Source: a virus
Strand: one strand, 5' to 3'
Virus record (IMG/VR): IMGVR_UViG_3300045912_000642
Location: 1-22,639 of that record
DNA length: 22,639 bases
Shown here piece by piece: positions 3,274 through 15,144 of the stretch. The notes below the pieces were generated by a model. It did no database searches and had not been told where the DNA came from. It saw only the letters and a list, made by a program, of their open reading frames with translations. How positions within the stretch are numbered: position 1 is the first letter of the stretch; every line of letters begins with the position of its first letter. A program made the translations under genes and the position numbers.

Positions 3274-3298
3274 GCGTGGCAGCTCCAACCCTCGCGTC
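3260..3298. terminator. Perfect 10-bp inverted repeat between convergent genes, possible bidirectional terminator
   Basis: GACGCGAGGG (3260-3269) and its exact reverse complement CCCTCGCGTC (3289-3298) flank a 19-nt loop. The left arm ends just before the joiner stop codon and the right arm overlaps the convergent toxin stop codon. The stem is very GC-rich but has no U-tract on either side. It is therefore not a textbook intrinsic terminator, though it could pause or separate the opposing transcripts. Confidence 0.4.
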
Positions 3299-3701
3299 AC
3301 AGTTCGGGTGAGATCAGCTGAACCGTCGGAAAGTAGGCCCGATAGCGGCGGATGTCGCGCGTCAAGAGCGGCAGTCGCGCGACGGCGGCATGCGCGCCCA
3401 CGAAGAAATCCGGCAGTACGCCGGAGCGCGTCCCGCCGGCCGTGCGATAGCGCTGGAACACCTTGGCGGCCAGGAACAGCGCCTCGCGGGGCATGGCGGC
3501 CATCTCGACCTGGGCGATGGCCAGCGCCTCGTCCACCTCCTCCTTGCGCAGGAACCCCACCGAGAGTTCCGCGTAGACGACGTCATTGATCAGCACCGGC
3601 CCGCGCACGGCTGCGGCTTCGAGCTGCCGTTGCGACCAGTCCGCCCAGACGGCATCCTCGGTGACCACGTCGAGCAGGACATTGGTGTCGACTAGCGTCA
3701 C
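3297..3701 (-). CDS. vapC: VapC-type PIN-domain ribonuclease toxin
   Basis: A 134-residue PIN-domain protein, normal length for VapC. The acidic metal-binding set is visible: Asp5 in LVDTN, Glu45 in YAELSVGF, Asp98 in LPDFFVGAHA and Asp116 in LLTRDIRRYR. PIN toxins of this kind are Mg-dependent endoribonucleases that cut tRNA or rRNA and stop growth unless bound by the partner antitoxin. The start is GTG at 3701, one base after the antitoxin stop, so the two genes are co-transcribed and probably translationally coupled. The pair is antisense to the phage late operon, between joiner and portal. All key residues are present, so the toxin looks intact. The RNA target cannot be read from sequence. 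Confidence 0.93.
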   Translation of the reverse strand: MTLVDTNVLLDVVTEDAVWADWSQRQLEAAAVRGPVLINDVVYAELSVGFLRKEEVDEALAIAQVEMAAMPREALFLAAKVFQRYRTAGGTRSGVLPDFFVGAHAAVARLPLLTRDIRRYRAYFPTVQLISPEL

Positions 3702-3702
3702 C

Positions 3703-3948
3703 TCATTCCTCGCCGCGCGTCAGCGCCATGATCTGCTCGGTGGTCATCCCCGCGCTGGCGCGGCCCCGCAGCTTGGCGAACCGGCTTCGCGGGCGGCTCG
3801 CCGGGCCACGACGGCCGACCTTGCTCACCACCACGCGCCCGTCCTCGGCCAGCTCGAACGCCACTTCGTTCCCGGGCTTGATGCCGAGCAGCTCGCGAAC
3901 CTCCTTGGGAATGGTGACCTGTCCCTTGCTCGTCACGGTGTTCGCCAT
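3703..3948 (-). CDS. vapB: AbrB/MazE-type antitoxin (VapB)
   Basis: An 81-residue protein with a typical swapped-hairpin AbrB domain at residues 1-45: VTSKGQVTIPKEVRELLGIKPGN, then VAFELAEDGRVVV. The basic, Pro/Arg-rich C-terminal part (about 45-81) is the expected toxin-binding tail. Such antitoxins neutralise the PIN nuclease and, alone or with the toxin, bind their own promoter. ATG 3948 has a CAGGAG site 7 bases upstream. A 5-bp inverted repeat lies about 32 bases upstream of the start and is a candidate operator. The gene precedes its toxin by one base. Confidence 0.92.
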   Translation of the reverse strand: MANTVTSKGQVTIPKEVRELLGIKPGNEVAFELAEDGRVVVSKVGRRGPASRPRSRFAKLRGRASAGMTTEQIMALTRGEE

Positions 3949-7638: not shown

Positions 7639-8028
7639 TCACCGCGACCGGAGGATGGGCACGCCATAGCGCCTTGCGTGCCCGTCATCGGTCACGAAGG
7701 TCGCCCCCTCGGCGGCGGCCTGCGCGAGCAGCAGGTGATCGAACGGGTCGCGATGGCGGTCGGAGACCGGCAGCGCCAGCAGCCGTTCGACATGCCCGGC
7801 CGTCAAGTCCAGCAGATCGAACCCGGCCCGCACGCTCTCCCGGATCAGCGCGGACACGTCGACGTCCAGCTTGCCGATCCGCACCTTGATCGCCGCCTCC
7901 CACAGGGAGACGACGCTGACCAGCACCGTGTTGGCGGGATCGGCGATCGCCGCACGGGCCTTCCGCCCGAGCTGATCGTCACCGGCGGCGAACCACAGCA
8001 GCACATGGGTGTCGAGCAGCAGCCTCAC
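7639..8028 (-). CDS. vapC: VapC-type PIN-domain toxin (second cassette)
   Basis: A 129-residue PIN protein of a different subfamily from the one at 3297-3701. It begins RLLLDTHVLLWF (Asp6), has SLWEAAIKVRIGKL (Glu44), the signature HRDPFDHLLLAQA (Asp94 and Asp97) and FVTDDG (Asp114/115). This is the subgroup usually paired with Phd/YefM-type antitoxins. All acidic positions expected for the metal site are present, so it should be an active RNase; the target is unknown. The start is GTG at 8028, overlapping the antitoxin stop by 4 bases (GTGA). Its stop codon directly abuts that of the capsid gene, forming the palindrome TGATCA at 7636-7641. Confidence 0.93.
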   Translation of the reverse strand: MRLLLDTHVLLWFAAGDDQLGRKARAAIADPANTVLVSVVSLWEAAIKVRIGKLDVDVSALIRESVRAGFDLLDLTAGHVERLLALPVSDRHRDPFDHLLLAQAAAEGATFVTDDGHARRYGVPILRSR

Positions 8029-8303
8029 GCCGCTCGGCCACGCGGAGACGGCGGGAAGGGATCAGCCTCCATCGCGGCCAGGATGTCCGGCGGCGTCTCC
8101 TCGAAGTCGGGTGCCACGCGGATCCGGCCCTTCATGAAGCCGAAGGGCCGCGATGCGGCGGCCGGGCGCTCGACCGGGACGAGGCGCGCCACCGGCTCGC
8201 CATTCGACGTCACCACCACAGTCTGCCCGCGCCGCACGCGCCGGAGATGCTCCGCCAGCCTGCCGCGGAGATCGCGCACGCTGACCTTCGCCTCGTCGGG
8301 CAT
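8025..8303 (-). CDS. Phd/YefM-type antitoxin (second cassette)
   Basis: A 92-residue antitoxin with the N-terminal Phd/YefM DNA-binding pattern VSVRDLRGRLAEHLRRVRRGQTVVVTSNGEPVARLVP, followed by a disordered, acidic C-terminal tail (DFEETPPDILAAMEADP) that would wrap the toxin. I placed the start at ATG 8303 because GGAGG lies 6 bases upstream; an ATG-less extension back to 8336 would cross the palindromic operator. It overlaps the PIN toxin gene by 4 bases, which supports coupled translation. The two palindromes just upstream fit autoregulation by a Phd/YefM dimer. Confidence 0.9.
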   Translation of the reverse strand: MPDEAKVSVRDLRGRLAEHLRRVRRGQTVVVTSNGEPVARLVPVERPAAASRPFGFMKGRIRVAPDFEETPPDILAAMEADPFPPSPRGRAA

Positions 8304-8313
8304 CCGACCCTCC

Positions 8314-8334
8314 GTGATCACGCTAAGTGTACAC
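8314..8334. promoter_or_regulatory. Paired palindromes, probable Phd/YefM operator
   Basis: GTGATCAC (8314-8321) and GTGTACAC (8327-8334) are both perfect 8-bp palindromes with centres 13 bp apart, immediately upstream of the antitoxin ribosome site. TGTACA-centred palindromes are the known type of site bound by YefM/Phd antitoxins, so operator function is a reasonable inference. Confidence 0.55.
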
Positions 8335-8405
8335 ACGAGAGCCTGGTCGCCGCAACCGCGGCCTTCGTTCCCCTTGCCATTGCACGCCTCAAAGGAGACC
8401 CACCC

Positions 8406-10584: not shown

Positions 10585-11541
10585 ATGGCCCGTGCCATCG
10601 GCGCGAATTGCCGCATCCACATGCAGAAGGAAGCCACCTACGGCACGCCGCCCGGTGGCAACTGGCTGCGCATGCCGTTCCTGTCGGTGGACCTCGGCGA
10701 GGAACAGCCGCTGATCGACAACAACGTGATCGGGCTCGGTGGCAACCGCGACGCGGCGACGCCGTTCCTCGACACGGTGACGGTCGCCGGCCGCGCCGTG
10801 GTGCCGGTGGACCTGATCCATTTCGGCCACTGGCTGCGCCTGCTGCTCGGCGCGCCGACCACCACGGGCACCAGCCCGAACTTCGTGCATACCTTCGTCT
10901 CCGGCGCGACGCCGCTGCCCTCCAACAGCGTCGAGATCGCCTATCCGGACGTGCCGTCCTACGATGTCTGCGCCGGCGTGCGGGCCGACACGCTGGAGAT
11001 CGACTTCTCGCCGACCGGCCCTGCCATCGCGACGGTGACGCTGATGGGCCAGGGCTCGACGCGTAGCGCGACCAGCAGCGCCGGCACGCCGACCAGTTCC
11101 ACCCTCACCCTGTTCCAGAAGCCGCAGGGCGAGATCAGGCGGAACACCACGCCGCTCGGCCAGGTGACGGCGGCGCGCGTGTCCTTCCAGAACGGGATGG
11201 AAATGGTCCGCACCATCCGCGCCGACCGCAAGGTGGAAGGCGTGGACCCCGGCATCTCGCTCGCCACCGGGCAGATCACCGCGCGCTTCGCCGATACGGT
11301 GCTGCTGACGCAGGCGGCGAACAACACCGCGGCCGAATTCGAGTTCGAATACCGGATCAATGCCGACCGCCGCCTGACCATCACGCTGCACCAGGTCTAT
11401 CTCTCGGTCGCCAAGACGCCGGTGGAAGGCCCGGGTGGTGTGGAGGCGACCTTCGACTTCCGCGCGGCCTATGACAGCACGGCCACGCGCATGATGACGG
11501 CGGTTCTGCGCAACGGCGAGGCGGGGAGCCTGTATGCCTGA
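10585..11541 (+). CDS. Phage tail tube protein
   Basis: A 318-residue structural protein with a strong AGAGGAGA site upstream. It opens ARAIGANCRIHMQKEATYGTPP, a typical beginning for tail tube subunits (a strand followed by E-x-TYGTPP), then LRMPFLSVDLGEEQPLIDNNVIGLGGNRD and a long Thr/Ser-rich beta region. The second half has FQNGMEMVRTIRADRKVEGVDPG and a C-terminal LTITLHQVYLSVAKTPVEGPGGVEATFDFRAA strand set. At over 300 residues it is larger than lambda gpV (246), suggesting duplicated or decorated tube domains. It polymerises as rings around the tape measure. The gene ends 3 bases from the convergent stop of the third toxin gene. Confidence 0.88.
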   Translation: MARAIGANCRIHMQKEATYGTPPGGNWLRMPFLSVDLGEEQPLIDNNVIGLGGNRDAATPFLDTVTVAGRAVVPVDLIHFGHWLRLLLGAPTTTGTSPNFVHTFVSGATPLPSNSVEIAYPDVPSYDVCAGVRADTLEIDFSPTGPAIATVTLMGQGSTRSATSSAGTPTSSTLTLFQKPQGEIRRNTTPLGQVTAARVSFQNGMEMVRTIRADRKVEGVDPGISLATGQITARFADTVLLTQAANNTAAEFEFEYRINADRRLTITLHQVYLSVAKTPVEGPGGVEATFDFRAAYDSTATRMMTAVLRNGEAGSLYA

Positions 11542-11544
11542 TGG

Positions 11545-11988
11545 CTATTCGGTCCGCCGGACCGCCGTGGTGCGGCGCTTCTGGCGCCATGCGGCAAAGG
11601 CCTCACGGATCTCCGCCATCACACGAGCCGGCAGCGGGCCATGGGTGAAGGGCCCCGTCCCGCCCTCGGTCGGCCGGAGATCGGGCCCCGGCCAGACAAA
11701 GAGGTTGTACTCGGTGACCACCACCCAGCATGGCTCTCGCTGCAGGCCGAGCCGCGCGCGGGTGCCGGCGGGTATCTCCACTCCCGCACCGGGCTCCTCC
11801 GGGGGCGTCGAGGTGATCGGCAGGACGACCACCTCGTCCTGCCCTTCAGCGCGGCGCAACAGCGCCACCACCGCGCAGGGACGGTCCTTCGACGCCTCCT
11901 CCCGTCCCGCAGCGTGCTCGTGGCTCCACAGATAGGCGTAGCGGATCACATCGCCGACCGCCGGCAGCGCCGGCGCGTCAGACCTCAT
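11545..11988 (-). CDS. PemK/MazF-like toxin (third cassette)
   Basis: A 147-residue protein with the features of the PemK/MazF beta-barrel: VGDVIRYAYLWSHE at the N-terminus, then KDRPCAVVALL, then VVVLPITSTPP, and WVVVTEYNLFVWPG. MazF-type toxins are sequence-specific mRNA interferases. The DRP and the ITS segments are conserved landmarks, although the spacing before DRP is longer than in classical MazF. The ATG at 11988 lies within the antitoxin gene (11-nt overlap). The gene is antisense to the late operon and its stop is 3 bases from the tail tube stop. Cleavage specificity cannot be told. A fairly divergent member, so the family call is less certain than for the PIN toxins. Confidence 0.8.
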   Translation of the reverse strand: MRSDAPALPAVGDVIRYAYLWSHEHAAGREEASKDRPCAVVALLRRAEGQDEVVVLPITSTPPEEPGAGVEIPAGTRARLGLQREPCWVVVTEYNLFVWPGPDLRPTEGGTGPFTHGPLPARVMAEIREAFAAWRQKRRTTAVRRTE

Positions 11989-12241
11989 GATCGAAGCGCT
12001 TGTTCTCCTCTGGCGGGCGTGCCGCGAGGATGGCGTCCACGACCTCCTGTGAGGCGTCCTCGGTCCGCACCACCTGCCGGTCGCGGCGCTTGAGGCGCTC
12101 GTATTCCTCGATCGAGATCAACACGGTGCGCGGACGCCCGTTGCGCGTGATGGCCACGGGCTGAGTGAGGGCCTTGTCCTGGTACAGGCCGAAGTTCCGC
12201 TGCGCCTCGGCCGCCGGGACCTTGAGCATGGGTTCGGTCAT
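11978..12241 (-). CDS. Phd/YefM-type antitoxin (third cassette)
   Basis: An 87-residue protein with the pattern KVPAAEAQRNFGLYQDKALTQPVAITRNGRPRTVLISIEEYERL, a near-textbook Phd/YefM N-terminal domain, followed by a charged, probably disordered tail. It represses its own promoter and inhibits the downstream toxin, with which it overlaps by 11 bases. I chose ATG 12241, which has AGGAAA at suitable spacing; an in-frame ATG at 12271 has no ribosome site. The divergent tail chaperone gene begins only about 53 bases away, so the promoter of this pair must lie within or very near the chaperone leader. Confidence 0.9.
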   Translation of the reverse strand: MTEPMLKVPAAEAQRNFGLYQDKALTQPVAITRNGRPRTVLISIEEYERLKRRDRQVVRTEDASQEVVDAILAARPPEENKRFDHEV

Positions 12242-12294
12242 CGGGGGTTTCCTGACTTCCGCAAGATACATAACCCATGGAGGACAAGGTTTCC

Positions 12295-12672
12295 ATGCTC
12301 GCCCTCGACATCCCGACCGAACCCTACTGGATCGACCTGCCGCGCGGCGTGCGGGTGGAAATCCGCCCCGTCACCACGGCCGTCGTCGCGGCGGCGCAGG
12401 CGGCGGCGCAGCGTTGCATGGCCGCGCTGCGCGAGGCGGACGCGAAGATGGACCCGGACCTCGCGCGCGGGCTCGCCTTCGCCTTCCTGGTGAAGGCGCT
12501 GGCGCGGCATGCCGTCACCGCCTGGGACGGCGTGGGCGATGCAACCGGCACGCCGCTGCCCCTCTCGCCCGAGGCGGTGGAGCGCCTGATGGACCTCGAC
12601 GAGATGGCGTCCGCCTTCTTCGACAAGGCGCTGATCCCGATGCGGAAGGTGGCGGCGGAGGGAAACGCCTGA
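12295..12672 (+). CDS. Tail assembly chaperone, gpG-like (zero-frame product)
   Basis: A 125-residue, Ala-rich, mostly helical protein beginning MLALDIPTEPYWIDLPRGVRVEIRPVTTAVV, with a strand-rich head and a helical body. Position between tail tube and tape measure is where siphophages encode the gpG-type chaperone that coats the tape measure before the tube polymerises. I placed the start at ATG 12295 with AAGG and GGAGG upstream; ATG 12277 (six residues longer) would contain that ribosome site inside the coding sequence. The last codons (GAG GGA AAC GCC TGA) contain the slippery heptamer G-GGA-AAC, and the -1 frame stays open for another 339 bases, strongly suggesting a lambda G/GT arrangement. 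Confidence 0.82.
   Translation: MLALDIPTEPYWIDLPRGVRVEIRPVTTAVVAAAQAAAQRCMAALREADAKMDPDLARGLAFAFLVKALARHAVTAWDGVGDATGTPLPLSPEAVERLMDLDEMASAFFDKALIPMRKVAAEGNA
12660..12666 (+). promoter_or_regulatory. Programmed -1 frameshift slippery site GGGAAAC
   Basis: The heptamer G-GGA-AAC is in the correct X-XXY-YYZ phase of the chaperone reading frame, two codons before the TGA stop. It differs in one base from the lambda G/T slippery site GGGAAAG. After slipping, codons GGG AAA CGC CTG continue into an open frame to 13007. Confidence 0.75.
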
Positions 12673-13007
12673 GGCGCCGCGCGGCGTGGCACGCGGGCAG
12701 CGGGCCGGACTACTGCCGCGGCTGCGCGGCGCTGGAGCGCGACTGCGGCCTGTCCTGCCCCTACGCCGCCCACGCGCCCGAGAGCGCCGAGGGCGCGGCG
12801 GTGTGGGCGGCCGGCATGGCCAGCGTGAGAGGCGGGATGACGGGTCCGGAGATGGACCTGGCCGACGCTCTGGCGCTGGCGCGGGAAGCGGGCGTGGCCG
12901 GCTGGGCGGCGGCGGAGATGCTGGCGGAGCTGCGCGCCGGCGTGGCGGAGGGCGTCGCTGCGCGCGACGCGCCGGCGGATGGCGGGGGCATGACGCATGT
13001 CGGATAG
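12666..13007 (+). CDS. Frameshift-encoded C-terminal domain of the tail chaperone (T-like)
   Basis: This open frame of 113 residues lies -1 to the chaperone gene and has no credible start of its own near its beginning. Slippage at 12660-12666 would join it to the first 124 residues, giving a 237-residue fusion. The domain starts with a basic segment, then a Cys cluster C-x2-C-x6-C-x3-C (YCRGCAALERDCGLSC) that could bind a metal, then two helical stretches (MDLADALALAREAGVAGWAAAEMLAEL). In lambda the analogous T domain binds the tail tube protein while G binds the tape measure. The stop overlaps the tape measure start by 11 bases. Separate initiation at an internal GTG or ATG around 12800-12840 is a less likely alternative. 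Confidence 0.7.
   Translation, partial: RLRRRAAWHAGSGPDYCRGCAALERDCGLSCPYAAHAPESAEGAAVWAAGMASVRGGMTGPEMDLADALALAREAGVAGWAAAEMLAELRAGVAEGVAARDAPADGGGMTHVG
12674..12732 (+). promoter_or_regulatory. Potential frameshift-stimulating RNA stem-loop
   Basis: The segment 12674-12685 can pair with 12721-12732 over 12 bp, including one G-U pair, closing a 35-nt loop. The stem begins 7 nt after the slippery heptamer, within the usual 5-9 nt spacer. A shorter self-complementary stem (12675-12686) competes. Pairing was done by eye; no energy was computed. Confidence 0.45.
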
Positions 13008-15144
13008 CACGCGCCGCGTGTCGGTTCGGATCGCGCTTGAAGGCGGCAGGCAGGTCGAAGTCTCGTTGCGCGAAGTCGGCGACGCCGGCCAGCGCGAGAT
13101 GCAGAAGATCGTGCAGGGCGCGGAAGGGGCGTCCCGCGCGCTGCGGCTTCTCGGGCCGATCGTCGCCGGGCTTTCCTTTGCGGGCGTCGGCGCATCTCTG
13201 GCGGCGTTCACGCGCAACGCGCTCGATACGGTGGGCGGCCTTGGCGAGCTCGCGGAGCAGGCAGGCGTCTCCACCGAGGCGCTGCAGGTGCTCAACTTCG
13301 CGGCGATCGATGCCGGGACGTCGGCCGAGGAAGTGCAGCGCGCGCTTGCGGCGCTCACCAGGCTGATTTCCGATGCCGCATCCGGCGAGCGGGCGGCGGC
13401 GGAGCGGTTCGAGCGCCTCGGCATCCGCTTCCGCGACGCCGCCGGCAATGCGCGCAACACCGAGGCGGTGTTCGCCGATCTGGCAGACGTCGTGGCGCGC
13501 TTCGAGTCGCCGGCCGAGCGCGCTGCGGCGGCGACCTCGCTGCTCAGCGATCGACTTGGCCAGCGGTTGATTCCGCTGCTGGCGCAGGGCCGGGATGGCC
13601 TGGAGGAAACCGCCGAGCGCGCGCGCCGCATGGGCGCGGTGCTGGACGCGGACCTCAGCGAGAAGGCCGATCGCGCGAGCGCCTCCATTGCCGAACTGAC
13701 GACGGCCCTCACGCGCATGGCGCAGGGGCTCGCGGTGAGTGTCGCCCCGGCGATCACCGCGACCGCCCAGGCTCTCAATCGCCTCATTTTCGGCGCGACC
13801 TCGGCGGAGCGGTCGCTCGAGATCGGCCAGCGCGTGGTGGCGCTCGGGCGAGAAATCGCCGCGCTGGAAGCTGGCGGGGCCGATCCCTCGCTGCTCGGCG
13901 CTTTCCAGACGCCGGCTGAGCGCGCCGCGACGAATGCGGGTCGTATCGAGGCGCTGCGTGCCGAACAGGCGCGGCTGATCGAGGAAAGCGCGCGGCTTGC
14001 TCGTGAGTACGAAGAACGTCAGCGGCGCATTGTCGAAGGCGGCGGTGTCTTCGGTGAGCGCGTCACTGCCGGCGCTGGCGAAGCCGAGCAGCGCCGCCGC
14101 CGCGCCGCGGCCGACATCGCGCAGCTGGAACAGCAGCTCGACGCCCGCGTGCGGATCGAAGCGCAGTTCCAGCAGCAGCTCGCGCGCATCCGCGAAGCCG
14201 AACAGGCCGGCGCGATCGACGCCGCGACGGCGCAGCGCCTGGTGGCGCGCGCCACCGACGAGCGCGCCGAGGCGCTGCGCCGGCTGACGACGGCCAGCCA
14301 GAGGGCCGCGCGCTCGACGAACGAGGAGACGGCGGAGGGGCGCGAGCTGATCGAGGTCCTGCGCGAGCAGGAGCGGCTGATCCAGCAGAACGAGACCGCC
14401 TATGAGCGGTTCCAGCGGCGCATTGAGAGCCTCGACACCCTCATCGAGCGGTCGCGGCGCGTCGGCGTCCCGCTTTCGGAGGAGGTGATCAACCGCGAAA
14501 TCTCCGCGGCGCTCGACGAGCTTGAGCGCGCGGAGGAACGCACGCGGCAGGTCAGCGACACCGCCCGCGACCTCGGCCTCGCCTTCTCCTCGGCCTTCGA
14601 GGACGCCATCGTCAACGGCCGGCGCTTCTCGGAGGTGCTGCGCGGGCTGGAACAGGACCTGCTCCGCCTCGGCACGCGCAAGCTGCTGACGGAACCGCTG
14701 CTCTCGCTGTTCAGCAACCTGATCGGCGGCCAGGGTTCTGGCGGCGACGTCTTCTCGCGGCTGCTGGCGGGGATCAGCGGCGGTGGCGGCGGCGGGCTGT
14801 TCTCGGGCATCGGCAACATCTTCAGCTCCATCTTCGGCTCGATCTTCCACGAGGGCGGCATGGTCGGCGGCCCGGCCGGCGCGCGGGCGGTGCCGGCGCT
14901 CGCCTTCGCCGGGGCGCCGCGCTTCCACTCCGGCGGCTTTCCTGGCCTCCGGCCCGGCGAGGTCCCGGCCATCCTCCAGCGCGGCGAGCGCGTGCTGTCG
15001 CGCGACGAGGTGCGGCGCGGCTCCGGCGGCGGCCAGGTCAACGTCACGATCGTGGCGCCCTCGCCCGAGACCTTCCACGCCTCGCGCAGCCTGATCGAGG
15101 CGCGGATGGCGCAGGCGGTGCGCATGGGCGCGAGGAACCTCTGA
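12997..15144 (+). CDS. Phage tail tape measure protein
   Basis: A 715-residue protein. Residues 1-50 are a basic/helical start, followed by a hydrophobic stretch around 50-70 (LLGPIVAGLSFAGVGASLAAF) and the conserved LGELAEQAGVSTEALQVLNFAA segment typical of tape measures. The central part (about 280-545) is rich in Glu/Arg/Gln heptads and probably forms long coiled coil. The C-terminus is Gly-rich (IGNIFSSIFGSIFHEGGMVGG, then FHSGGFPGLRPGEVPAILQ and RGERVLSRDEV), a family hallmark. The protein sets tail length: at 0.15 nm per helical residue, about 107 nm. The ATG overlaps the upstream frameshift frame by 11 bases. Confidence 0.93.
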   Translation: MSDSTRRVSVRIALEGGRQVEVSLREVGDAGQREMQKIVQGAEGASRALRLLGPIVAGLSFAGVGASLAAFTRNALDTVGGLGELAEQAGVSTEALQVLNFAAIDAGTSAEEVQRALAALTRLISDAASGERAAAERFERLGIRFRDAAGNARNTEAVFADLADVVARFESPAERAAAATSLLSDRLGQRLIPLLAQGRDGLEETAERARRMGAVLDADLSEKADRASASIAELTTALTRMAQGLAVSVAPAITATAQALNRLIFGATSAERSLEIGQRVVALGREIAALEAGGADPSLLGAFQTPAERAATNAGRIEALRAEQARLIEESARLAREYEERQRRIVEGGGVFGERVTAGAGEAEQRRRRAAADIAQLEQQLDARVRIEAQFQQQLARIREAEQAGAIDAATAQRLVARATDERAEALRRLTTASQRAARSTNEETAEGRELIEVLREQERLIQQNETAYERFQRRIESLDTLIERSRRVGVPLSEEVINREISAALDELERAEERTRQVSDTARDLGLAFSSAFEDAIVNGRRFSEVLRGLEQDLLRLGTRKLLTEPLLSLFSNLIGGQGSGGDVFSRLLAGISGGGGGGLFSGIGNIFSSIFGSIFHEGGMVGGPAGARAVPALAFAGAPRFHSGGFPGLRPGEVPAILQRGERVLSRDEVRRGSGGGQVNVTIVAPSPETFHASRSLIEARMAQAVRMGARNL

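Follow-up and report, generated by a model that had tools for sequence, protein, structure and literature searches.

The window, a virus record of 22,639 bases, carries a tail assembly chaperone-like gene, gpG (positions 12,295–12,672), between the gene for the tail tube, or major tail, protein (10,585–11,541; Pfam Phage_tube_2, E 2.8e-45) on its 5' side and the gene for the tape measure protein (12,997–15,144; PhageMin_Tail and several PHROG tape-measure families), as in the lambda-type G/GT arrangement. All three genes are on the plus strand. The unshifted gpG product is 125 amino acids in length and matches phrog_313 (Tail assembly chaperone, E 2.7e-14); no match was found in Pfam or NCBIfam, and its AlphaFold model is poor (pLDDT 66.6). 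We place the start of gpG at the ATG at 12,295, because the alignments of most relatives begin there (residue 7 as counted from the upstream in-frame ATG at 12,277) and because the gpG ATG overlaps the tail tube stop codon (TGATG or TAATG) in relatives with no upstream insert. By these alignments, a start at 12,277 appears less likely. The named relatives are mainly Acetobacteraceae (Falsiroseomonas, Roseococcus, Rubritepida, Siccirubricoccus, Neoroseomonas, and others), and the carrier is an Acetobacteraceae siphophage or prophage.

A hypervariable cargo slot (11,541–12,295) lies exactly between the tail tube stop and the gpG start. Across relatives (L006 to L173), the slot ranges in size from 0 to at least 3.9 kb, the smallest case (2 nucleotides) having the TGATG overlap, and it holds many unrelated proteins. 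The 257 open reading frames picked from these slots, some of which are probably spurious, form 156 clusters, and PADLOC and Pfam matches include Lamassu LmuA and LmuB, PD-T4-6, SIR2-like, STAND, caspase, GmrSD, and HEPN/Toprim. From its gene content, the slot looks like a hotspot for prophage cargo and defence genes. Three toxin-antitoxin-like pairs are located antisense (minus strand) between structural genes of the window: a PIN and MazE/AbrB pair (3,297–3,948), a PIN and Phd pair (7,639–8,336), and, within the slot, a PemK-like and Phd pair (11,545–12,271), the PemK-like member falling just below the Pfam cut-off.

The gpG reading frame ends in GCG GAG GGA AAC GCC TGA. The heptamer GGGAAAC (12,660–12,666, plus strand) is read G|GGA|AAC in the zero frame, which is the exact X XXY YYZ phase claimed for it in a reading made from the window's sequence only, and the gpG stop (TGA, 12,670–12,672) follows two codons past it, as that reading also had it. 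The window contains two copies of GGGAAAC, with 1.06 expected. With about one copy expected, the window by itself leaves room for an accidental heptamer where two genes overlap and the -1 frame is unexpressed. Given these numbers the motif by itself proves nothing, and it is the in-phase conservation that decides.

That conservation is extensive. Among 166 loci anchored on gpG, drawn from viral contigs and genomes and partly redundant (some isolates are in both collections), 160 have GGGAAAC exactly 10 nucleotides 5' of the gpG stop. Four more (L129, L162, L165, and L170) have it in the same place and are overlooked when counting back from the gpG stop, bringing the in-phase total to 164 of 166. 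The two exceptions are L131, in which gpG is truncated and the T part absent, and L037 (near 4360), in which the heptamer is mutated to GTGAAAC, a change that also gives a premature gpG stop; this change could be decay or sequencing error. A second set was assembled independently of gpG by searching the -1-frame protein in 299 genomes of the order. In this set, 43 of the 46 loci read have GGGAAAC at T codon zero, two are truncated before the site, and one has GGGGGAA; the most distant of these loci match T with E values of about 1e-16. In the locus with GGGGGAA (L206, G241:C42), this motif replaces GGGAAAC at the same place, with the 6-nucleotide spacer and the hairpin described below retained. 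A report on SEA-PHAGES genomes lists GGGGGAA among the slippery motifs (PMC10885494).

The codons themselves are also constrained. GAG-GGA-AAC is invariant in all 112 loci of a non-redundant set (<93% identity), which was chosen for carrying the heptamer, the unselected count being the 164 of 166 given above. Among the 121 columns encoding a conserved degenerate amino acid in these 112 loci, only the heptamer codons are invariant. Elsewhere, GGA makes up 4.9% of glycine codons and GAG 78% of glutamate codons. We regard the conservation of the in-phase heptamer across these sequences as decisive evidence against chance. Taken with the conserved hairpin and the purifying selection that acts on the -1 frame, it leaves a chance heptamer with a negligible probability, the comparative data having already refuted it.

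After the heptamer, the -1 frame reads GGG AAA CGC CTG AGG and continues to a TAG at 13,005–13,007, past the tape measure ATG at 12,997, so that the two genes overlap and the -1 frame is open to the tape measure start as predicted. The T part (12,666–13,007, plus strand), read only after the shift, is 113 amino acids in length, from the CGC at 12,666 to the TAG. With gpG starting at 12,295, the fusion gpGT has 124 + 113 = 237 amino acids, the length originally proposed; relatives align from that start. The -1 frame has a median dN/dS of 0.36, whereas pN/pS for the two remaining frames of this DNA is 1.25 and 1.51. These ratios indicate that selection on the -1 frame is purifying.

The T part has a Cys4 motif, C-x2-C-x6-C-x3-C (12,714–12,758, plus strand), whose four cysteines are invariant in 25 T sequences, including phages at about 30% identity; the cysteine spacing is shorter in the Rhodobacter phages. 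The motif is metal-binding-like in its sequence, and a WH motif is also conserved in the T part. The T of the window itself has no match in Pfam, NCBIfam, or PHROG, while 7 of the 25 T members match phrog_11212, a family of unassigned function. The AlphaFold model of the T part is confident (pLDDT 85). It has no match in the PDB, and none of its 20 matches in BFVD is below E 0.29, several of these being named tape measure proteins or tail assembly chaperones. Searches of PDB sequences with G and T profiles likewise gave no match.

As proposed, this Cys-rich domain has no good start of its own: across the 112 loci the -1 frame holds no conserved ATG, GTG, or TTG 5' of the Cys motif, and no homologue with a separately initiated downstream gene was seen. 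In two loci (L143 and L161) a -1-frame stop lies directly 5' of the heptamer, and T is therefore not enterable from further upstream. The sole near-start is -1-frame codon 3, which is CTG in the window (12,669) and in 73 of the 112 loci. T might then be a gene of its own whose translation begins, through re-initiation or coupling once gpG has ended, at a non-standard start such as this CTG, for which the GGAGG just upstream, overlapping the heptamer, could serve as a Shine-Dalgarno sequence. We consider this very improbable. The candidate start codon is CTA in 37 of the 112 loci; in distant relatives the gpG stop is 87–135 nucleotides downstream, yet the heptamer is still where the T frame starts; and re-initiation leaves the synonymous invariance of GAG and GGA unexplained.

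The heptamer is followed by a 6-nucleotide spacer (12,667–12,672, plus strand), which in the window holds the gpG stop. The spacer is constant in length across relatives, even where the gpG stop is 87–135 nucleotides further on. Next comes a local hairpin (12,673–12,706, plus strand; -20.0 kcal/mol) whose position is conserved in the family. A fixed-register test of pair covariation against synonymous permutation gave almost no excess (H1, 0.762 versus 0.754; H2, 0.744 versus 0.744), because the stem register shifts by one between lineages, and a register-free sliding-window fold test was therefore used instead. This test compared 36-nucleotide windows at 43 positions over both genes in 23 divergent loci with synonymous shuffles. 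One clear minimum emerged, the 36 nucleotides at +13, 6 nucleotides past the heptamer (mean z -1.67, mean MFE -23.2 kcal/mol); no other position had a mean MFE below -16.6 kcal/mol. The hairpin at 12,673–12,706 in the window is itself not unusual against synonymous shuffles (z -0.58), and the structural claim rests on the family, not on the source sequence by itself. The 6-nucleotide spacer occurs with very different stems, as in RcKemmy (GCGCCCTTGC/GCAAGGGCGC) and L081 (GGGCCCGCG/CGCGGGCCC). The distant loci with the displaced gpG stop mostly retain the hairpin (z -3.26 in L205 and -3.35 in L211), L209 being the exception (z +1.22).

The structure originally noted at this site was a different one, a 12-bp stem beginning 7 nucleotides downstream of the heptamer. 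This longer stem (12,674–12,732, plus strand), an alternative of the window's lineage to the family hairpin, is present in the MFE fold of the window and is similar in L012. It reaches a z of only -1.30 against dinucleotide shuffles, 17 of 200 shuffles being as good, and was rejected as a family structure, since relatives do not keep it and retain the hairpin at 12,673–12,706 instead.

A conserved hairpin at fixed spacing suits ribosomal slippage, and it bears on whether the two frames might instead be joined by transcriptional slippage or by a sequencing error. Either can change the frame, and translation is not observed by sequence tools; however, GGGAAAC contains no long homopolymer, and the same arrangement recurs in more than 160 loci, many isolate genomes among them. 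We consider both highly improbable, more so than re-initiation.

Heptamer, spacer, and hairpin follow the standard layout for tandem -1 slippage, namely a slippery heptamer, a short spacer, and a hairpin. We conclude, with a probability of about 0.95, that a programmed -1 ribosomal frameshift operates in this G/GT tail assembly chaperone gene; the conservation of heptamer and phase in homologues supports the frameshift interpretation of the sequence-only reading. The majority of ribosomes would translate the 125-amino acid gpG up to the TGA at 12,670. A minority, with GGA paired in the P site and AAC in the A site, would meet the hairpin 6 nucleotides downstream, slip back by one base, and re-pair on GGG and AAA. 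Translation would then continue for 113 codons in the -1 frame to yield the 237-amino acid gpGT with its Cys4 domain. If lambda is a guide, the tape measure protein would be covered by many gpG molecules and few of gpGT, with the T domain bringing in the tail tube subunit, and both gpG and gpGT would depart before the tail is complete. The heptamer, its phase and conservation, the coding in the -1 frame, the absent start, and the conserved hairpin are direct observations, and on them we infer the slippage itself and its rate, and, from lambda, the chaperone roles of gpG and gpGT.

In tandem slippage the AAC is decoded before the slip, and the main junction should for this reason read VAAEGN-RLRRR, with a tryptic peptide VAAEGNR in the fusion as against the C-terminal VAAEGNA in gpG. 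The junction suggested earlier, GKR followed by LRRR, gives way to this one; it would need slippage in the P site alone.

The near-fixed choice of GGGAAAC may have to do with the host. In E. coli, AAC in the A site is less shift-prone than AAG (PMC5009743), a point that weighs against the frameshift reading. One speculative and rather unlikely proposal is that the heptamer reflects the host tRNA set: a separate tRNA-Lys(CUU) would spoil GGGAAAG; slippage at GGGAAAC would involve tRNA-Asn and might depend on the queuosine status of that tRNA, tying the ratio of tail chaperones to host tRNA modification. Of 60 genomes of the order, 59 contain candidates for tRNA-Lys(CUU) and 59 contain candidates for tRNA-Lys(UUU), with examples confirmed by ARAGORN, and tgt is present in all 60. 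As support for the proposal, this survey is suggestive only. The proposal stays tentative because C34 and G/Q34 both mismatch A after the slip; tRNA-Asn is mismatched as well. The dependence of heptamer choice on the host tRNA repertoire becomes testable with these loci, which together allow an AAC-type slippery site in bacteria, with its conserved hairpin, to be compared in depth. The frameshift also corrects the annotation of T, which has no start codon and is missed or mis-started in a large group of Acetobacteraceae prophages.

The programmed -1 frameshift of lambda G/GT (Levin 1993 and Xu 2004, as summarised in PMC5009743) provides a close parallel. In lambda, with gpG outnumbering gpGT about 30:1, the two proteins bind the tape measure protein through their shared G sequence, and T contacts the tail tube subunit (PMC5009743). 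The present locus shares with lambda the location of the site between the tail tube and tape measure genes, the layout of G plus a -1 GT fusion, and a GGGAAA-type heptamer in identical codon phase. It differs in having GGGAAAC rather than lambda's GGGAAAG, in the sequence families of G and T, which are distinct and in which no lambda match was seen, in the Cys4 motif of T, and in the family's hairpin at a fixed spacing of 6 nucleotides. In the haloarchaeal virus HCTV-1, an archaeal virus, the reported shift site of this gene pair (g-t) is G_GGA_AAC itself (PMC5009743), and the likeness lies in that site. Homologous G and T also occur in a Nostoc phage Nsp-JY21 record (L004, near 2839), with an A-run, GAAAAAAAAGG, at the junction. 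They are annotated there as two separate chaperone genes, possibly joined by an unannotated shift.

A further close comparison is with the Rhodobacter capsulatus RcC phages RcKemmy, RcMeacham, and RcKvothe, homologues with GGGAAAC in which a joined CDS is annotated. They share a homologous gpG (34–36% identity), GGGAAAC, the 6-nucleotide spacer, the hairpin, and a homologous Cys4 T, but differ in that their gpG stop is about 90 nucleotides past the heptamer, as against 3 here, and in a stem whose sequence is largely unlike. The paper on the Rhodobacter phage collection that includes RcKemmy treats programmed frameshifting as usual in these genes (PMC8601537). The site described here is thus well supported yet unexceptional as a member of the lambda G/GT kind, a shift of this type being already annotated in these related Rhodobacter phages.
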